Positions 29,699-38,108 of a DNA stretch of 64,000 nt are shown here, piece by piece (position 1 is the first letter of the stretch; every line of letters starts with the position of its first letter). Under the pieces are notes generated by a model. The model made no database searches. It saw nothing but the letters and a program-made list of their open reading frames with translations, and was not told where the DNA came from. The position numbers and the translations under genes were made by a program. The stretch comes from Micromonospora sp. WMMA1947 (GTDB lineage: Bacteria; Actinomycetota; Actinomycetes; Mycobacteriales; Micromonosporaceae): positions 3,162,001 through 3,226,000 of the forward strand of contig NZ_CP114909.1 in assembly GCF_027497355.1 (NCBI RefSeq), in the 5' to 3' direction.

Positions 29699-30130
29699 TC
29701 AGCCGGGATAGTCGCCGGGCCGGGCGCCCGGATTGGCGTTCAACCAGGATAGGTAGCGGTTGTAGGCGGCCAGCTCGGCGTCGTCCGCCCCGTCGGCCGG
29801 GGCGGCCGGCACCCGTACGACGCGCACCGGCCGGCGTACCGCCGGGGTGGTGGCGACCGGCTCGTCGTCGGCAGCCGCCGACGGCGCCGGATCGGCCGCC
29901 GGCTGCGCGTCGCCCGGCGGTGTCGCGCGCAGCGTCTGGCGGACCTCACGCCACCAGACGAAGATCACGAAACCGGCGAACACCGGCCACTCGATCGCGT
30001 AACCGAAGCTGATCGCGTTTCCCCCGGCGGCGCGGGTGACCTGCCACCAGCCCATCCCGAGGCAACCCGCCACCAGCACGACCATGGCCACGTGGCGGAC
30101 GATCCACGCCGGTGTCCAGAGCCGTTCCAT
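29699..30130 (-). CDS. Small membrane protein with Pro/Ala-rich cytoplasmic tail
   Basis: A 143-residue protein: two hydrophobic helices (about residues 9-30 and 42-60, with [20 protein letters not shown]), then a long Ala/Pro-rich tail ending in [16 protein letters not shown] recognise the general type from actinobacterial genomes but not a function. The start is ATG at 30130, seven nucleotides after a TACTCT hexamer, so the mRNA is probably leaderless. Confidence 0.8.
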
Positions 30131-30137
30131 GCCCACG

Positions 30138-30143
30138 AGAGTA
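30138..30143 (-). promoter_or_regulatory. -10 hexamer TACTCT (minus strand), leaderless start
   Basis: Seven nucleotides before the ATG at 30130 and no ribosome-binding site between. Confidence 0.5.
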
Positions 30144-30254
30144 CCGGGACTCCCGGGCGTCTCCGACACGGCGTCGTAGTCCGGGCGGTGGTTTGGTGAC
30201 ACGCCCGGTGGGCATCCGAACAGGTGCCAACCCGAACGAGACGAGGGGGCGACG

Positions 30255-30548
30255 ATGACCGAATCGGTACGCCGGGACGCGAGCCCGGAACAGCGGGTCG
30301 CGGAGTGGGACGGCGATCACGCCCGCACCGTCGACGGCGAGCAGCTCGGGGTGGACCCGGTGGAGCTGGGCGACGAGGACCTGGTCCGGGAGATGCAGAG
30401 CCTGCACCGCACCCGGCTGGACACGCTGCGCCACGCCACCGACTCGGCGCTCGCCAACCACCTGCGGCGCACCGCCGAACTGGAGACGGAGTACCTGGCC
30501 CGGCACCCCGGCCGGGAGGTCGACCCGAGCCGGCTGCGGGACGCCTGA
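30255..30548 (+). CDS. DUF6158-family protein
   Basis: A 97-residue cytoplasmic protein. [31 protein letters not shown] and the [20 protein letters not shown] end match the DUF6158 family of actinobacteria, predicted all-helical. Function unknown. Its stop overlaps the start of the SRPBCC gene (TGATG). Confidence 0.82.
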
Positions 30549-30865
30549 TGGCCAGCCACGCCGAGCGCGGCATGTCCGCGCCGCCGGAGGTGGTGTTCAA
30601 CACCGCCACTGATCCGGACCGCTCCTCGGCCTGGCTGCCCGAGCGGCTGCGCAACTCCGGCACCTGCCGGGTCGAGGTCGTCGACGCCGACGACATGCGG
30701 GCCCGATGGAGCGCCGCGGACTGGTCCGCCGAGATCGACGTGGAACCGGCCGACGCGGGCGGCGCCCGGGTGCGGCTGGACCTGGCCGGGCCGGACCACG
30801 ACCTGGCCGACGAGATCCTGGCCAATCTCGACCGCGAGGTGGCCGACAACCTGACCGCCGGATGA
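30548..30865 (+). CDS. SRPBCC/START-like small protein
   Basis: A 105-residue protein, shorter than usual for the SRPBCC fold but with the typical opening APPEVVFNTATDPDRSSAWLP and a C-terminal helix. Such proteins bind hydrophobic ligands in a cavity; the ligand is unknown. Translation is coupled to the DUF6158 gene by a 1-nt overlap. Confidence 0.72.
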   Translation: MASHAERGMSAPPEVVFNTATDPDRSSAWLPERLRNSGTCRVEVVDADDMRARWSAADWSAEIDVEPADAGGARVRLDLAGPDHDLADEILANLDREVADNLTAG

Positions 30866-30899
30866 GCCCGGCCCGCACGACGAGCACGAGGAGGCCGGG

Positions 30900-31439
30900 T
30901 TGACCGGGAGTGGCCTGAAGCAGAAGGTGGCGCGCCTGCGCCAGGCGTACGCGCCGCACGAGCACCGGCCGCTGGAGGGCTACCTGAAGGCGATGGGCAC
31001 GTACGCCGGTGTGACCGCCGGGCTCGTCGGCCTGGTCCGGGCGACCGGGCGGCCGGTGCCCGAGCGGCCCACGCCGGCGGACGTGGTGCTGCTCTCGATC
31101 GCCACGCACAAGCTCAGCCGGCTGCTGTCCAAGGACGCGATCACCAGCCCGCTGCGGGCGCCGTTCACCCGCTACGACCACCCGATCGGCAGCGGCGAGG
31201 TGATGGAACAGGTCCGCGACGAGGGCAGCCCGACCCGGCACGCGCTCGGCGAACTGGTCAGCTGCCCCTTCTGCCTGGCGGTCTGGGTGGCCACCGGGCT
31301 CACCGGCGGCCTGGTGCTGGCGCCCCGGCTGACCCGCCTGGTCGCCACCGCGCTGACCGCGGTGGCCGCCTCCGACTTCCTCCAGATGGGGTACGCGGTC
31401 GCCCAGCAGGCGGCCGAGGGTGGTCGCCACGAGGCGTGA
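30900..31439 (+). CDS. DUF1360-family membrane protein
   Basis: A 179-residue protein related to sporulation protein YjcA-type DUF1360 proteins, with hydrophobic segments around residues 38-50, 118-138 and 140-160 and the family motif SCPFCLAVWVA. The start is TTG at 30900 after GAGG. It ends the small + strand cluster and is followed by a strong terminator. Function unknown. Confidence 0.82.
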   Translation: MTGSGLKQKVARLRQAYAPHEHRPLEGYLKAMGTYAGVTAGLVGLVRATGRPVPERPTPADVVLLSIATHKLSRLLSKDAITSPLRAPFTRYDHPIGSGEVMEQVRDEGSPTRHALGELVSCPFCLAVWVATGLTGGLVLAPRLTRLVATALTAVAASDFLQMGYAVAQQAAEGGRHEA

Positions 31440-31451
31440 GACGCGGACACG

Positions 31452-31483
31452 AAGGGGGCCGGCGCGCGGGCGCCGGCCCCCTT
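31452..31483. terminator. Terminator after the DUF1360 gene
   Basis: A 13-bp perfect stem (31452-31464 with 31471-31483), 6-nt loop and a short T run. It can serve both the + strand gene and the convergent minus-strand gene at 31501. Confidence 0.8.
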
Positions 31484-31500
31484 TCGCGTGTCTCCCACCG

Positions 31501-31710
31501 TCAGGTGGGGGTGGTGCCGTGGTCCTCGCCGGCCCAGCCGCGCGACGCCTCCGGCTCCCGCTCGTCCTCGTCCTCCCCGGTGATGACCTCCCGGTCCACG
31601 GCGGTCCGGTCGTGCTCGTTGGCGAAGTCCGGCTCCGGCAGCGTGTCGACGCCCTCCGGTGGCTGGCCGAGCGCCTCCAGGTGCTCGTGCTCGCGGTCGT
31701 GGTGGGTCAT
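31501..31710 (-). CDS. 69-residue acidic hydrophilic protein
   Basis: A short, Glu/Asp-rich and probably disordered protein starting MTHHDREHEHLEALGQPPEG. No family recognised. It has an ATG start preceded by GAGAGGACGCGAG and lies 25 nt downstream of another small gene on the same strand. Confidence 0.6.
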   Translation of the reverse strand: MTHHDREHEHLEALGQPPEGVDTLPEPDFANEHDRTAVDREVITGEDEDEREPEASRGWAGEDHGTTPT

Positions 31711-31735
31711 CTCGCGTCCTCTCGGTTCCGGGGGC

Positions 31736-31957
31736 TCAGGCGACCGTGCCGCCCAGCAGATCGGCCGCCTCGTCCGCCGCGTACTCGCCCTCAGGGAGCG
31801 CGGCGATCCGGGTGAGCAGCTCCGCGGGGAGTTCGGCGGCCACCGCCCGGCGGTAGATGTCCGCCTGGGTGATCCGCTCCTGGCCGTGGTAGATGTCGTC
31901 GAGCAGGTCGTCGAGCGGCCTGGTGTCGGGCTGCTCGGTCACGGGCGCGTCATCGGT
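31736..31957 (-). CDS. 73-residue acidic protein
   Basis: A short, mainly helical acidic protein with the segment GQERITQADIYRRAVAAELP followed by LPEGEYAADEAADLLGG. No function recognised; the acidic helical layout resembles small DUF2795-like proteins. GTG at 31957 follows GTAGGTGG; another GTG at 31969 is possible. Confidence 0.6.
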   Translation of the reverse strand, partial: TDDAPVTEQPDTRPLDDLLDDIYHGQERITQADIYRRAVAAELPAELLTRIAALPEGEYAADEAADLLGGTVA

Positions 31958-32009
31958 CACGCCGACCACCTACCCGGCACCGAACCGGTCAAACTCGCCG
32001 CAACCCCGC

Positions 32010-33098
32010 TCAGGCCGGTGCCGGGAGCGTGGCCCGGCGGGCCCGGACAGCCTGGGCCAGGTGCTCCAGGACCTCGGCGGTGGAGTCCCAGCCGATGCAG
32101 GCGTCGGTGACCGACTGGCCGTACGTCAGCTCCCGGGTCGGGTCCAGGTCCTGCCGGCCGGGCACCAGGAAGCTCTCCAGCATGATGCCGACGATCCCGC
32201 GCTGCCCGGCGGCGAGCTGGGCGGCCACGTCGGCGGCGACGAGCGGCTGGTTGCGGTGGTCCTTGCCGCTGTTGGCGTGGCTGGCGTCGACCACCACCCG
32301 CTCCGGCAGGCCCGCAGCGCGCAGCAGTTCCAGCGCCCCGGCCACCGACTCCGCGTCGTAGTTCGGCCGGCCGCCACCGCCGCGCAGCACCAGGTGCCCG
32401 TCCGCGTTGCCCCGGGTGTGCATGATCGCCGGCGTGCCGGAGACGTCGATGCCCGGGAAGACGTGCGGCACCCCGGCCGCCCGGATCGCGTCCACCGCGG
32501 TGGCGATGCTGCCGTCGGGGCGGTTCTTCATGCCGATCGGCATGGACAGCCCGGAGGCGAGCTGCCGGTGCACCTGGCTCTCCACCGTCCGCGCGCCGAT
32601 CGCACCCCAGGCCACCGTGTCCGCGATGTACTGCGGGGTGATCGGGTCGAGGAACTCGCAGCCCACCGGCAGACCCAGCCGCAGCACGTCGAGCAGGAGC
32701 GCCCGCGCGGTACGCAGGCCCGTGTTCACGTCGCCGGAGCCGTCCAGCGCCGGGTCGTTGATCAGGCCCTTCCAGCCCACCGTCGAGCGCGGCTTCTCGA
32801 AGTAGACGCGCATGACCACGAGCAGGTCGTCGGCGACCCGCGCGGCGGCCTCGCGCAGCCGGCCCGCGTACTCCAGGGCGGCGGCCGGGTCGTGCACGGA
32901 GCAGGGGCCGACGACGACGAGCAACCGGTCGTCGGCGCGGTCCAGCACCCGGCCGACGGCACGGCGGCCCGCCACGACGGCCTCGGCCAGCGGGGTGTCG
33001 AGGGGCAGGTGGTGGTGCAGCAGGGCGGGGGTGGTCAGCGGCACCACACGATCGATGCGCTGGTCGATGACGCGATGGGCGTCCGGGGAGGTGGTCAC
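32010..33098 (-). CDS. aroG: 3-deoxy-7-phosphoheptulonate synthase (class I DAHP synthase)
   Basis: A 362-residue enzyme condensing phosphoenolpyruvate and erythrose 4-phosphate, the first step to Trp, Phe and Tyr. It is the AroFGH type: VVGPCSVHDP, KPRSTVGWKGLINDP, MPIGMKNRPDGS, VDASHANSGKDH and the late SVTDACIGWD are all present. The GTG at 33098 after GGAAGGAAT gives the normal length; the longer frame upstream runs through an attenuator-like region. Because most actinobacteria use a class II enzyme, this may be a second isoenzyme. Expression is likely controlled by the leader peptide at 33219-33284. Confidence 0.95.
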   Translation of the reverse strand: MTTSPDAHRVIDQRIDRVVPLTTPALLHHHLPLDTPLAEAVVAGRRAVGRVLDRADDRLLVVVGPCSVHDPAAALEYAGRLREAAARVADDLLVVMRVYFEKPRSTVGWKGLINDPALDGSGDVNTGLRTARALLLDVLRLGLPVGCEFLDPITPQYIADTVAWGAIGARTVESQVHRQLASGLSMPIGMKNRPDGSIATAVDAIRAAGVPHVFPGIDVSGTPAIMHTRGNADGHLVLRGGGGRPNYDAESVAGALELLRAAGLPERVVVDASHANSGKDHRNQPLVAADVAAQLAAGQRGIVGIMLESFLVPGRQDLDPTRELTYGQSVTDACIGWDSTAEVLEHLAQAVRARRATLPAPA

Positions 33099-33148
33099 GG
33101 TGGGGATTCCTTCCGCCGACCGTGCCCCCGTGCCGGGTCCGGGGGATC

Positions 33149-33204
33149 GAGCCGGCTGCTCGCATACGAAAGGGCAGGGAAACAATCCCTGCCCGGCCGG
33201 CTCG
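33149..33204 (-). promoter_or_regulatory. Attenuator region of the DAHP synthase gene
   Basis: On the minus strand GAGCCGGC (33203-33196) can pair with GCCGGCTC (33156-33149), enclosing the terminator hairpin. A third copy of the same pairing sequence, CAGCCGGCTG (33248-33257), lies within the leader-peptide coding region, so mutually exclusive pairings are possible. Confidence 0.55.
33172..33194 (-). terminator. Intrinsic terminator in the DAHP synthase leader
   Basis: On the minus strand GGGCAGGGA-TTGTT-TCCCTGCCC followed by TTT: a perfect 9-bp stem with 5-nt loop, located between the leader peptide stop and the aroG start, 74 nt before the latter. Confidence 0.8.
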
Positions 33205-33218
33205 AAGAGGTGGTGACG

Positions 33219-33284
33219 TCAGCTCATGGTCGAGTCACCGGCTCCTCCAGCCGGCTGCCTAAACCATCGATACGACCGCGTCAC
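33219..33284 (-). CDS. Leader peptide MTRSYRWFRQP..., aromatic-amino-acid sensing
   Basis: A 21-codon reading frame starting GTG at 33284: the peptide begins MTRSYRWFRQPAGGAG and ends STMS. Codons 5, 7 and 8 are Tyr, Trp and Phe, the three end products of the pathway opened by the DAHP synthase downstream. A TACGCT hexamer lies 7 nt before the GTG, so the mRNA probably starts at the peptide. The pairing segments and terminator that follow make ribosome stalling at these codons a likely signal for read-through. The peptide is inferred; the codons and hairpin are directly visible. Confidence 0.78.
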   Translation of the reverse strand: MTRSYRWFRQPAGGAGDSTMS

Positions 33285-33291
33285 GTCGGCC

Positions 33292-33297
33292 AGCGTA
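33292..33297 (-). promoter_or_regulatory. -10 hexamer TACGCT for the aroG leader
   Basis: Seven nucleotides before the leader-peptide GTG; suits a leaderless transcript beginning with the peptide. Confidence 0.55.
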
Positions 33298-33360
33298 CCC
33301 GACGCGCGCCGGAAAACCCGCTGTCGTTCCGAAGTGCGGAACACGGGGTATGAGATCGCC

Positions 33361-33582
33361 ATGACCACGAGCCACGACCCCACTGACCAGGAACGGATCG
33401 AGTCCCGAGCGCATCTGCTGCCGGAGGAGGCGGCGGCGGGCAGCGACGACGCCCAGGCGCAGGCCGACGCGATCCTCGCCGAGTCCGACATCCGCGAGGC
33501 GGACCAGAACGCCGCCCCCGACACGGTGCTGGAGCACCGCACCTCCGAGCAGACCGTCACCCCCGTCGAGCCTCCCGACTGA
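33361..33582 (+). CDS. 73-residue acidic hydrophilic protein
   Basis: A small disordered-looking protein (MTTSHDPTDQERIESRAHLL at the start, PVEPPD at the end), divergent from the aroG leader. No family recognised. It overlaps the convergent gene at 33557 by 26 nt. Confidence 0.6.
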   Translation: MTTSHDPTDQERIESRAHLLPEEAAAGSDDAQAQADAILAESDIREADQNAAPDTVLEHRTSEQTVTPVEPPD

Positions 33583-34270
33583 GCGCGGCACCCCGGGCCC
33601 GGCGGGAACCCCGGTAACTGTCGTCCCGCAGCCGGGCCAGCGGGCCGGCCAGACGTAACCCCGGCGGCACGTTGCCGATCGGGTCGAACGCGAGCGCGGC
33701 GTCCTCGGCGGCGCCGCGCTCGTCGTCGAGGCGTACCTCGCCGAACGGCCGCCACCGGCCCACCGGCGAGGCCACCGCCAGCACCAGCCGGGGCTCGTCA
33801 CCGGCCACCGCCGCGCCCGCCTCGGCCAGGCCGCGGCCCAGGTCGGGTGACTCCGGGTCGGCCAGCGCGGCCAGGAGCAGCCGCCGCGCGCCGACCCGGA
33901 ACGGCATGATCGACGTGTACGTCCCGGTGAAGCGCCGCCGAGGCAGCGGCAGGTTCCGCAGCACCGGCGCGGCGCCGCTGGAACTCCACAGCAGGTCCAC
34001 CGGCGGCTCCGGGTCACGGTGCAGCCGCACCGCCACGCCCAGCACGTCCGGCCAGGCACCCGGCGTCGGCACGCCCTTGGAGAGGCGGATCGTGGCCGGC
34101 CACCGGCCGGGGGAGTCCAGCAGCGGCACCCCGGTCGGCGGTCCCGGCGTACCCCAGATCCGGGTCTCGCCGGCGAACGTGCGCCCGGCCGGGTGCAGCA
34201 GCCGGGCGTGCCGGAGCCGGGCCAGCGCGGCGGCGGCGCGCTCGACGGCGGAGGATGTGGTGGCGGCCAT
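33557..34270 (-). CDS. Conserved actinobacterial protein (often labelled phosphodiesterase)
   Basis: A 237-residue protein with GVPTPGAWPDVLGVAVRLHR, LPLPRRRFTGTYTSIMPFRV and FDPIGNVPPGLRLAGPLARL as conserved blocks. Proteins with this pattern are often annotated as phosphodiesterases without visible metal motifs, and the layout also recalls a stripped catalase-like fold; I do not trust either assignment. ATG start at 34270, divergent from the M16 peptidase gene. Confidence 0.72.
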   Translation of the reverse strand: MAATTSSAVERAAAALARLRHARLLHPAGRTFAGETRIWGTPGPPTGVPLLDSPGRWPATIRLSKGVPTPGAWPDVLGVAVRLHRDPEPPVDLLWSSSGAAPVLRNLPLPRRRFTGTYTSIMPFRVGARRLLLAALADPESPDLGRGLAEAGAAVAGDEPRLVLAVASPVGRWRPFGEVRLDDERGAAEDAALAFDPIGNVPPGLRLAGPLARLRDDSYRGSRRARGAALSREARRG

Positions 34271-34343
34271 GCCCGCTGGGGTACCCCGGCGCGCACCGAC
34301 GATGCTCCGGCGCGCGCGTCACGTCTGCGCCTCCGAGATCGGA

Positions 34344-34349
34344 TAGCGT
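34344..34349 (+). promoter_or_regulatory. -10 hexamer TAGCGT, leaderless start of the M16 operon
   Basis: Six nucleotides before the ATG at 34356, without a ribosome-binding site. Confidence 0.55.
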
Positions 34350-34355
34350 CGTCTC

Positions 34356-35644
34356 ATGCCCGACAGCGGTTTCCCCTGGCCGATCGAGACGACCCGACTG
34401 GACAACGGCCTGCGCGTGGTGGTGAGCGAGGACCGTTCCGCCCCGGCCGTGGCGGTCAACCTCTGGTACGACGTGGGCTCACGTCACGAGCCGGCCGGAC
34501 AGACCGGCTTCGCCCACCTGTTCGAGCACCTCATGTTCGAGGGCTCGGTGAACGTGGCGAAGACCGAGCACATGAAGCTGATCCAGGGCGCCGGCGGCTC
34601 GCTCAACGCGACCACCAACCCGGACCGGACCAACTACTTCGAGACGGTCCCCGCCGAGCACCTGGAACTGGCGCTCTGGCTGGAGGCCGACCGGATGGGC
34701 GGGCTGGTGCCGGCGCTGACCCAGGAGACGCTGGACAACCAGCGCGACGTGGTGAAGAACGAGCGCCGGCAGCGCTACGAGAACGTGCCGTACGGCGACG
34801 CCTGGCTGCGCCTGCTGCCGCTGCTCTACCCGCCCGGGCACCCGTACCACCACGCGACGATCGGGTCGATGGCCGACCTGAACGCCGCCGACCTGGCCAC
34901 CTTCCAGGAGTTCCACAGCACGTACTACGCGCCGAACAACGCGGTCCTCACGGTGGTCGGCGACACCACCGCCGCGGAGGTGTTCGCGCTCGCCGACAAG
35001 TACTTCGGCGGCCTCGCCGCGCGGGCCGACATCCCGGCTGCGCCGGACGGCCGCACCGTGCCGGCCACCGGCCGCCCGGCGGTGGAGACGGTCACCGCCG
35101 ACGTGCCCGCCCCCCGCGTCTACGTCGCGCACCGCACCCACCCGTTCGGCACCCCGGGGTACGACGTGACCACGGTGCTGGCCACCGTGCTCGGCAGCGG
35201 CCGGGGCAGCCGCCTCTACCAGCGGCTCGCCGACGGGGAACGGATCGCCCAGCCGGACCTGGTCGGCGCGGACGGGGTGGACCTGGCGCACGCACCCGCG
35301 CCGCTGATCGCCACCGCCACGGCCCGCCCCGGGGTGAGCGCCGAGCGGCTGCGCGACGGGCTGGCCGAGGTGGTCGACGAGCTGGCGACCGTGCCGGTGA
35401 CCGCCGCCGAGCTGGACCGGGCCAAGGCCCTGCTGACCACCATGTGGTGGCGGCAGATGTCCACTGTCGACGGGCGGGCGGACACGCTCGGCCGGTACGC
35501 CACCCAGCTCGGCGACCCGGCCCGCGCGGCCGACCGGCTGCCGGCCTGGCTCGCGGTGACCGCGGAGCAGATCGCCGAGCAGGCCGCCGAGCTGCTCGGC
35601 GCCGCCGACCGGGTGATCCTGACCTACGTGCCCGAGGAGAACTG

Positions 35645-35645
<1 letters not shown>
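34356..35645 (+). CDS. M16-family zinc peptidase, catalytic subunit
   Basis: A 429-residue pitrilysin/mitochondrial-processing-peptidase-like protein. The inverted zinc motif HxxEH appears as HLFEHLMFEG, with the downstream Glu in NERRQRYENVPYG. Such proteins degrade peptides in a clam-shell chamber formed by two related halves. The adjacent gene encodes the partner half and overlaps by 1 nt, so the two are made together. There is no signal peptide; it is probably cytoplasmic. Confidence 0.93.

Positions 35646-38108
<2,463 letters not shown>

Follow-up and report, generated by a model that had tools for sequence, protein, structure and literature searches.

The region directly upstream of the class I DAHP synthase gene of Micromonospora sp. 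WMMA1947 is probably a ribosome-mediated attenuator that reads tyrosine, tryptophan and phenylalanine. Judged by its sequence and those of its relatives, the leader is real, widely conserved and of a known kind, and it is a member of a large, little-described attenuator family in actinobacteria. Ribosome-mediated attenuation is supported because the order of the control codons shifts between lineages, yet their set follows the branch of the pathway that lies downstream. The leader was studied within a 64,000-nucleotide stretch of DNA, the window, and the reading draws on its anatomy (Table 1), its conservation, the covariation of its RNA structure and the branch-following control codons.

Table 1. 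Features of the leader region in the window, in order of transcription
Feature	Positions	Strand	Remarks
-10-like element TACGCT	33297-33292	minus	7 nt before the leader GTG
Leader peptide frame MTRSYRWFRQPAGGAGDSTMS	33284-33219	minus	21 codons plus TGA; read directly; frame kept in relatives
Control codons TAT-CGA-TGG-TTT (Tyr-Arg-Trp-Phe)	33272-33261	minus	direct reading
Segment 1, GCCGGCT	33255-33249	minus	inside the frame; pairs with segment 2 or segment 3
Segment 2, AGCCGGT	33243-33237	minus	inside the frame; 1:2 hairpin conserved
Segment 3, CGAGCCGGC	33204-33196	minus	1 nt before the terminator; 1:3 helix covaries
Terminator hairpin (predicted) GGGCAGGGA-TTGTT-TCCCTGCCC	33194-33172	minus	perfect stems, N5 loop; TTT at 33171-33169
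Segment 6, GCCGGCTCG	33156-33148	minus	complementary to segment 3; encloses the terminator
Shine-Dalgarno-like GGAAGGA of the DAHP synthase gene	33114-33108	minus	direct reading
Class I DAHP synthase, 362 aa	33098-32010	minus	PF00793 284.4 bits; TIGR00034 471 bits

An earlier note on this DNA had described a 21-codon frame with Tyr, Trp and Phe at codons 5, 7 and 8, followed by a hairpin and TTT, and direct reading bears it out: the frame opens with GTG (33284-33282, minus strand), its TGA ends at 33219, and the codons are TAT (33272-33270), TGG (33266-33264) and TTT (33263-33261). Rare codons are used in the control stretch; counted across 37 long open frames in the window, TAT accounts for 1.8% of Tyr codons and TTT for 1.9% of Phe codons, while CGA and AGG make up 2.9% and 2.7% of Arg codons. 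Both strands of the window hold 17 ATG or GTG codons that lie 6-8 nt downstream of a TANNNT element, among which only the leader GTG has Tyr, Trp and Phe inside five codons near the start; when the promoter condition is dropped, 7 of 3300 starts in the window do. Upstream of the leader promoter lies a divergent open frame of 73 codons (33361-33582, plus strand), which starts MTTSHDPTDQ.

The leader sits directly before the DAHP synthase gene, as in the aroR type of Corynebacterium glutamicum. The class I enzyme is a single match in the genome, with one class II enzyme elsewhere, and the stretch scanned upstream of the class II gene holds no short frame with two or more aromatic residues. No Rfam family, the T-box included, reached its gathering score within positions 30000-36000 of the window.

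An intrinsic terminator, predicted from sequence and covariation, stands between the leader frame and the gene. The three GCCGGCT-type segments claimed earlier are present, and the count rises to four (segments 1, 2, 3 and 6), the first two within the frame itself. Between the terminator and the Shine-Dalgarno site lie segment 6 (33156-33148) and, as GTCGGC, a further GCCGGC-type segment at 33120-33115. RNA from 33284 to 33100 is more stably folded than 200 of 200 dinucleotide shuffles (z -3.5), and the minimum-energy fold in the window consists of a long hairpin closed by segments 1 and 3, one nucleotide, and the terminator. GGTGAC:GTCACC pairs inside the long 1:3 hairpin.

The earlier note had made its reading hang on conservation, and in relatives the frame, the three aromatic codons and the terminator are kept. 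A class I DAHP synthase is present in 169 of 200 genomes of the window's family, and the leader frame was found in 69 of 70 upstream regions, of which 30 came from the enzyme search and 40 were picked for diversity; L045 is without it, and the leader of L065, overlooked by the script, was counted by eye. The alignment retained 46 of 47 representatives, leaving out L055, whose terminator is missing. A covariance model built from 46 upstream regions of the family (R1) matches 153 of the 200 family genomes, and the window's own genome once. Throughout the 46 aligned leaders the TTT columns are invariant and Phe closes the control stretch, with segment 1 only a few nucleotides further on. The YRWF order is almost unchanged in close relatives, and other genera of the family have FYWF, WYSWF, WYAWF, YWWF, YWRF or WYRF; a few family leaders are without Trp (YQRF, YRRF) and one is without Tyr (SRWFGW). 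In one leader, that of L066, the aromatic stretch is doubled (VSRWYSWLPTYSWFEWPAF).

The leader is also found well beyond the family. Class-wide, R1 matches 57 of 394 genomes at E<=0.01, and all 55 listed matches outside the window's family have a start codon 6-8 nt after TANNNT; in a phylum-wide draw it matches 5 of 296 genomes at the same threshold. A second family gave matches in 113 of 151 genomes at a loose E<=1, with leader and enzyme both present in 48 of 50 loci inspected (the best 30 plus 20 selected). The R1 matches L279 and L281 (E 0.4-0.7) were rejected as false. One YWRF-type pattern, run against named genomes, gave at least 118 stretches. Among the matches listed, the 80 loci examined hold 81 sites, every one of them with the promoter spacing (72 at 7 nt), 77 with a class I DAHP synthase motif downstream and 58 with a loose terminator-tail pattern; the four sites without the DAHP synthase motif have no more than 61-349 nt left to the end of the locus as fetched. 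These listed matches include Dietzia, Hoyosella, Mycolicibacterium, Catellatospora, Glycomyces, Tsukamurella, Luteimicrobium, Williamsia, Phytoactinopolyspora, Gordonia and Hamadaea. Mycolicibacterium houstonense (L159) carries two copies of the leader region (1315-1346 and 2341-2372), 1026 bp apart and identical over the 240 nt stretches compared.

Translation of the frame is indicated by its geometry. A set of 171 anchored loci, from which L072-L074 were dropped as duplicates and L119 as having no anchor, shows a start codon 6-8 nt after TANNNT in every case. By a blind rule 168 of the 171 starts share the reading frame of the control Phe, the other three loci having anchors misplaced in T-runs or before TTC, and the distance from start to Phe ranges from 18 to 39 nt, always in steps that are multiples of three. 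Because the spacing from the -10 element to the start codon is fixed, the leader mRNA is probably leaderless and the frame probably translated from it.

The strongest sign that the codons act as amino acid sensors is that the codon set tracks the pathway branch. Tyr, Trp and Phe are all present in 131 of 151 DAHP synthase leaders (128 by script plus L269, L271 and L280 after correction of their anchors, with L119 scored as lacking). At 21 class-wide loci the leader precedes instead a chorismate mutase domain, alone or fused to a weak DAHP synthase-like domain; Pfam confirmed 19 of these, and L089 and L124 were included by their likeness to the confirmed loci. None of the 21, which serve the Phe/Tyr branch, has Trp among its control codons, all 21 have Phe, and 13 have Tyr too. 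When only unique control stretches are counted, Trp occurs in 67 of 79 before DAHP synthase and in 0 of 18 before chorismate mutase (Fisher p 5e-12, a value computed over related lineages that are not independent). The 20 exceptions among the DAHP synthase leaders comprise 14 in family f22, mostly RYPYF-like, five in the window's family and L119; Trp is missing from 14 of the 19 DAHP synthase leaders of f22.

At 13 loci (L075, L080, L083, L085, L088, L092, L093, L095, L098, L099, L126, L128 and L129) the downstream protein is about 300-415 aa long and has a chorismate mutase domain fused to a DAHP synthase-like domain that is weak and partial. The GPCS motif, a class I marker, is missing in these 13 fusion proteins, which are possibly regulatory or inactive relatives of DAHP synthase.

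One test of covariation compared the stability of cognate and swapped pairs without aligned base pairs; its z-scores still include relatedness. Cognate segments 1 and 3 pair more stably than swapped ones in the 46 family sequences (z -7.7) and in 37 representatives of seven families (z -7.7; reversed control -1.9). In 22 representatives the best scan interval for this pair reaches -5.0, the lowest reversed control being -3.7, and in family f2 by itself the signal is weak (z -2.0 over 13 representatives). Across the whole scan of the 46 sequences, 20 of 474 interval pairs fall below -4 against five of 474 reversed controls (lowest -5.2); in the 22 representatives the figures are six and none. 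The terminator and the 1:3 helix covary jointly: both sides of the pair have changed in 47 cells, where shuffles give 13.3 and slid controls 1 to 7. Pairing of the control codons with the region before the stop codon covaries as well (z -4.5, 22 representatives). The 3:6 pairing has z -6.3 in the 46 sequences and -3.5 in the 22 representatives, the latter within the control range. A helix at the 5' end (GTGACG with CGTCAC after the stop codon) was set aside, having z -5.6 in the 46 and falling outside the 14 best in the 22 representatives. With the neighbourhood of the Shine-Dalgarno site, segment 1 shows no covariation at 14 loci (z +0.8) and no more than z -3.0 in 33 family sequences, and segment 6 shows none (z +2.3).

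Two relatives bear on how the 1:3 helix might act. L292 and L278 have a hairpin with T7 or T6 behind it, and its 5' strand includes segment 3 or the beginning of that segment; since segment 3 is there part of the T-run hairpin, the 1:3 helix and the terminator are mutually exclusive at these loci. At 14 of 16 hand-picked loci (L112-L114, L269, L271, L274, L278, L284-L286, L291-L294, L296 and L055), the place of the usual terminator is taken by a GAGCCGG...CCGGCTC hairpin that in most cases has no T-run. The 14 are L055 and 13 loci of family f2 or f3; their replacement hairpin is built from segment 3 itself, and the output there may be translation start or another type of termination.

The mechanism that is proposed from these features would run as follows. 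Transcription would begin at or very near the leader GTG. When charged Tyr-, Trp- or Phe-tRNA is short, the ribosome would slow at TAT, TGG or TTT, and just downstream of such a lagging ribosome segments 1 and 3 would form the long hairpin, which would disable the adjoining terminator so that DAHP synthase is made. With ample amino acids the ribosome would reach the stop codon, segments 1 and 3 would be held apart, and the terminator would end transcription. The stalling and readthrough are what we infer from the leader; that the 1:3 helix is the conformer that stops the terminator has an even chance of being right. It is taken as the antiterminator of the window because of homology with L292 and L278.

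Folding calculations in which ribosome masks cover the Tyr, Trp or Phe codon or the stop codon count against this model: whatever the ribosome state, the terminator keeps a mean probability of 0.92-0.93. A classical antiterminator that shares a strand with the terminator was thereby rejected for the window, where the 1:3 helix and the terminator lie 1 nt apart. In L038 and L064 the terminator value in the Phe state is near 0, probably through a misplaced anchor in their alignment rows. Before the 3' half of the terminator exists, its 5' strand pairs variously. As the hairpins of the window only abut and the terminator folds in all states, any exclusion between them would need a steric or kinetic basis. 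Moreover, with a ribosome at the Phe codon much of segment 1 would be hidden and only the distal part of the hairpin left. The lack of a Tyr effect on the C. glutamicum operon, as stated in a review, and the f22 leaders without Trp also count against the model.

Trp-type attenuators resemble the window in having end-product control codons, hairpins inside the frame and a terminator before the gene; the window differs in that its antiterminator-like helix abuts the terminator without a shared strand and that three aromatic amino acids are read on one leader. Leaders for several amino acids have a precedent in ilvGMEDA of E. coli. Among the features by which an attenuator is recognized, an in-frame start and stop before the terminator, product-matched control codons and an intrinsic terminator are all found, and a strand-sharing antiterminator is not; the leader is consequently said only to work like trp-type attenuators.

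The original paper on the aroR leader before aroF of C. glutamicum is reportedly that of Neshat et al. (2014). As described in excerpts of PMC11802643 and PMC4046766, aroR is a Phe-Tyr-Phe leader acting by attenuation, and aroF transcription rises under Phe limitation, Tyr availability being without effect; aroR is also named in passages of PMC3890552 and PMC7356990. Thus the earlier claim that actinobacteria offer no described example falls to aroR, a short aromatic-rich leader before a DAHP synthase gene as in the window. The Tyr-Arg-Trp-Phe order of that claim stands as unreported in the open-licence literature searched, where no report of Tyr-Trp-Phe leaders or of chorismate mutase leaders was found either. 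The control run of aroR, which is known here by description, is Phe-Tyr-Phe, with Trp unmentioned in the excerpts, whereas that of the window is Tyr-Arg-Trp-Phe. The small-genome locus L280 (family f2) has WRFYF, containing Phe-Tyr-Phe, before DAHP synthase, and by architecture and peptide it suggests a link between the two types; its R1 match is weak (E 0.72).

Other actinobacterial leaders place the family among its neighbours. The 2005 survey (PMC1262725), in the portion available, describes elements of the Trp, Cys, Leu/Ilv and Ile genes and reports that the other amino acid pathways it covered yielded no conserved structures; a table in PMC8079986 has eight Streptomyces lividans leaders, none of them in that table before DAHP synthase or chorismate mutase. 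Related uORF attenuators appear in excerpts of PMC10272879, PMC4974804, PMC4633059 and PMC13236596. The ilvB-II motif and the actinobacterial ilv, leu and trp leaders (PMC10272879, PMC1262725, PMC8079986, PMC13236596), as excerpted, are like the window in placing a uORF in a hairpin that is followed by a terminator hairpin, and several of the ilv, leu and trp leaders are described as leaderless; they differ in their amino acids and genes. With aroR as the known precedent, what is new is the apparent three-way reading, the breadth and the tuning to the branch.

One alternative is that the attenuator senses mainly Phe, the codon adjoining segment 1 being the sensor and the Tyr and Trp codons merely tuning speed: the ribosome would cover segment 1 and free segment 3, and the output might partly be translation start by way of segments 6 and 8. 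The place of Phe as last control residue near segment 1 in all 46 aligned leaders fits this, as do the reported response of C. glutamicum to Phe limitation and not to Tyr (in the excerpts cited above), the GAGCCGG...CCGGCTC hairpin at 14 of the 16 hand-picked loci, and the complementarity of segment 1 to the sequence before the Shine-Dalgarno site. That last pairing, however, shows no covariation at 14 loci (z +0.8) and only z -3.0 in 33 family sequences, and speed tuning does not predict that 131 of 151 DAHP synthase leaders retain Trp and Tyr while Trp occurs in 0 of 21 before chorismate mutase; the alternative is considered unlikely. The earlier proposal of an aromatic-sensing leader gains from the same tracking of the branch by the codon set, and loses where, by the excerpted reports, the C. 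glutamicum operon does not respond to Tyr availability.

It is very improbable that the region is a conserved terminator with RNA structure in which no amino acid is sensed and the short frame is incidental. Conserved structure and a terminator that folds whatever the modelled state speak for it, but such a region would not be expected to keep start codon, promoter spacing and frame while the start-to-Phe distance varies from 18 to 39 nt in steps of three, nor to match its aromatic set to the downstream gene. Hardly credible, too, is an arrest peptide, in which the residues themselves, and not a shortage of charged tRNA, would stall the ribosome. RxYxWF followed by PA does resemble a conserved peptide in close relatives, but aromatic order and spacing vary widely (YRWF, FYWF, WYSWF, YWRF, RYPYF), and it is RNA segments 1 and 2 that encode the conserved PA or APGGA.

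Under the preferred reading, a ribosome-mediated attenuator for Tyr, Trp and Phe, a broader picture is evenly poised between right and wrong: one scaffold across the actinobacterial aromatic pathway, retuned by codon swaps, varied in output and acting as an OR gate for three amino acids. It would carry Tyr, Trp and Phe before the shared first enzyme, and Tyr and Phe or Phe alone before chorismate mutase; in some lineages the terminator would have been exchanged for a hairpin that may act on translation start. If true, many soil actinobacteria would control entry into the shikimate pathway by an RNA sensor for three amino acids that is small enough to escape gene finders, and the exchange of codons between the DAHP synthase and chorismate mutase leaders would be a natural experiment on the retuning of an attenuator. 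The leader would then also offer a way to influence the supply of aromatic precursors in producer strains.
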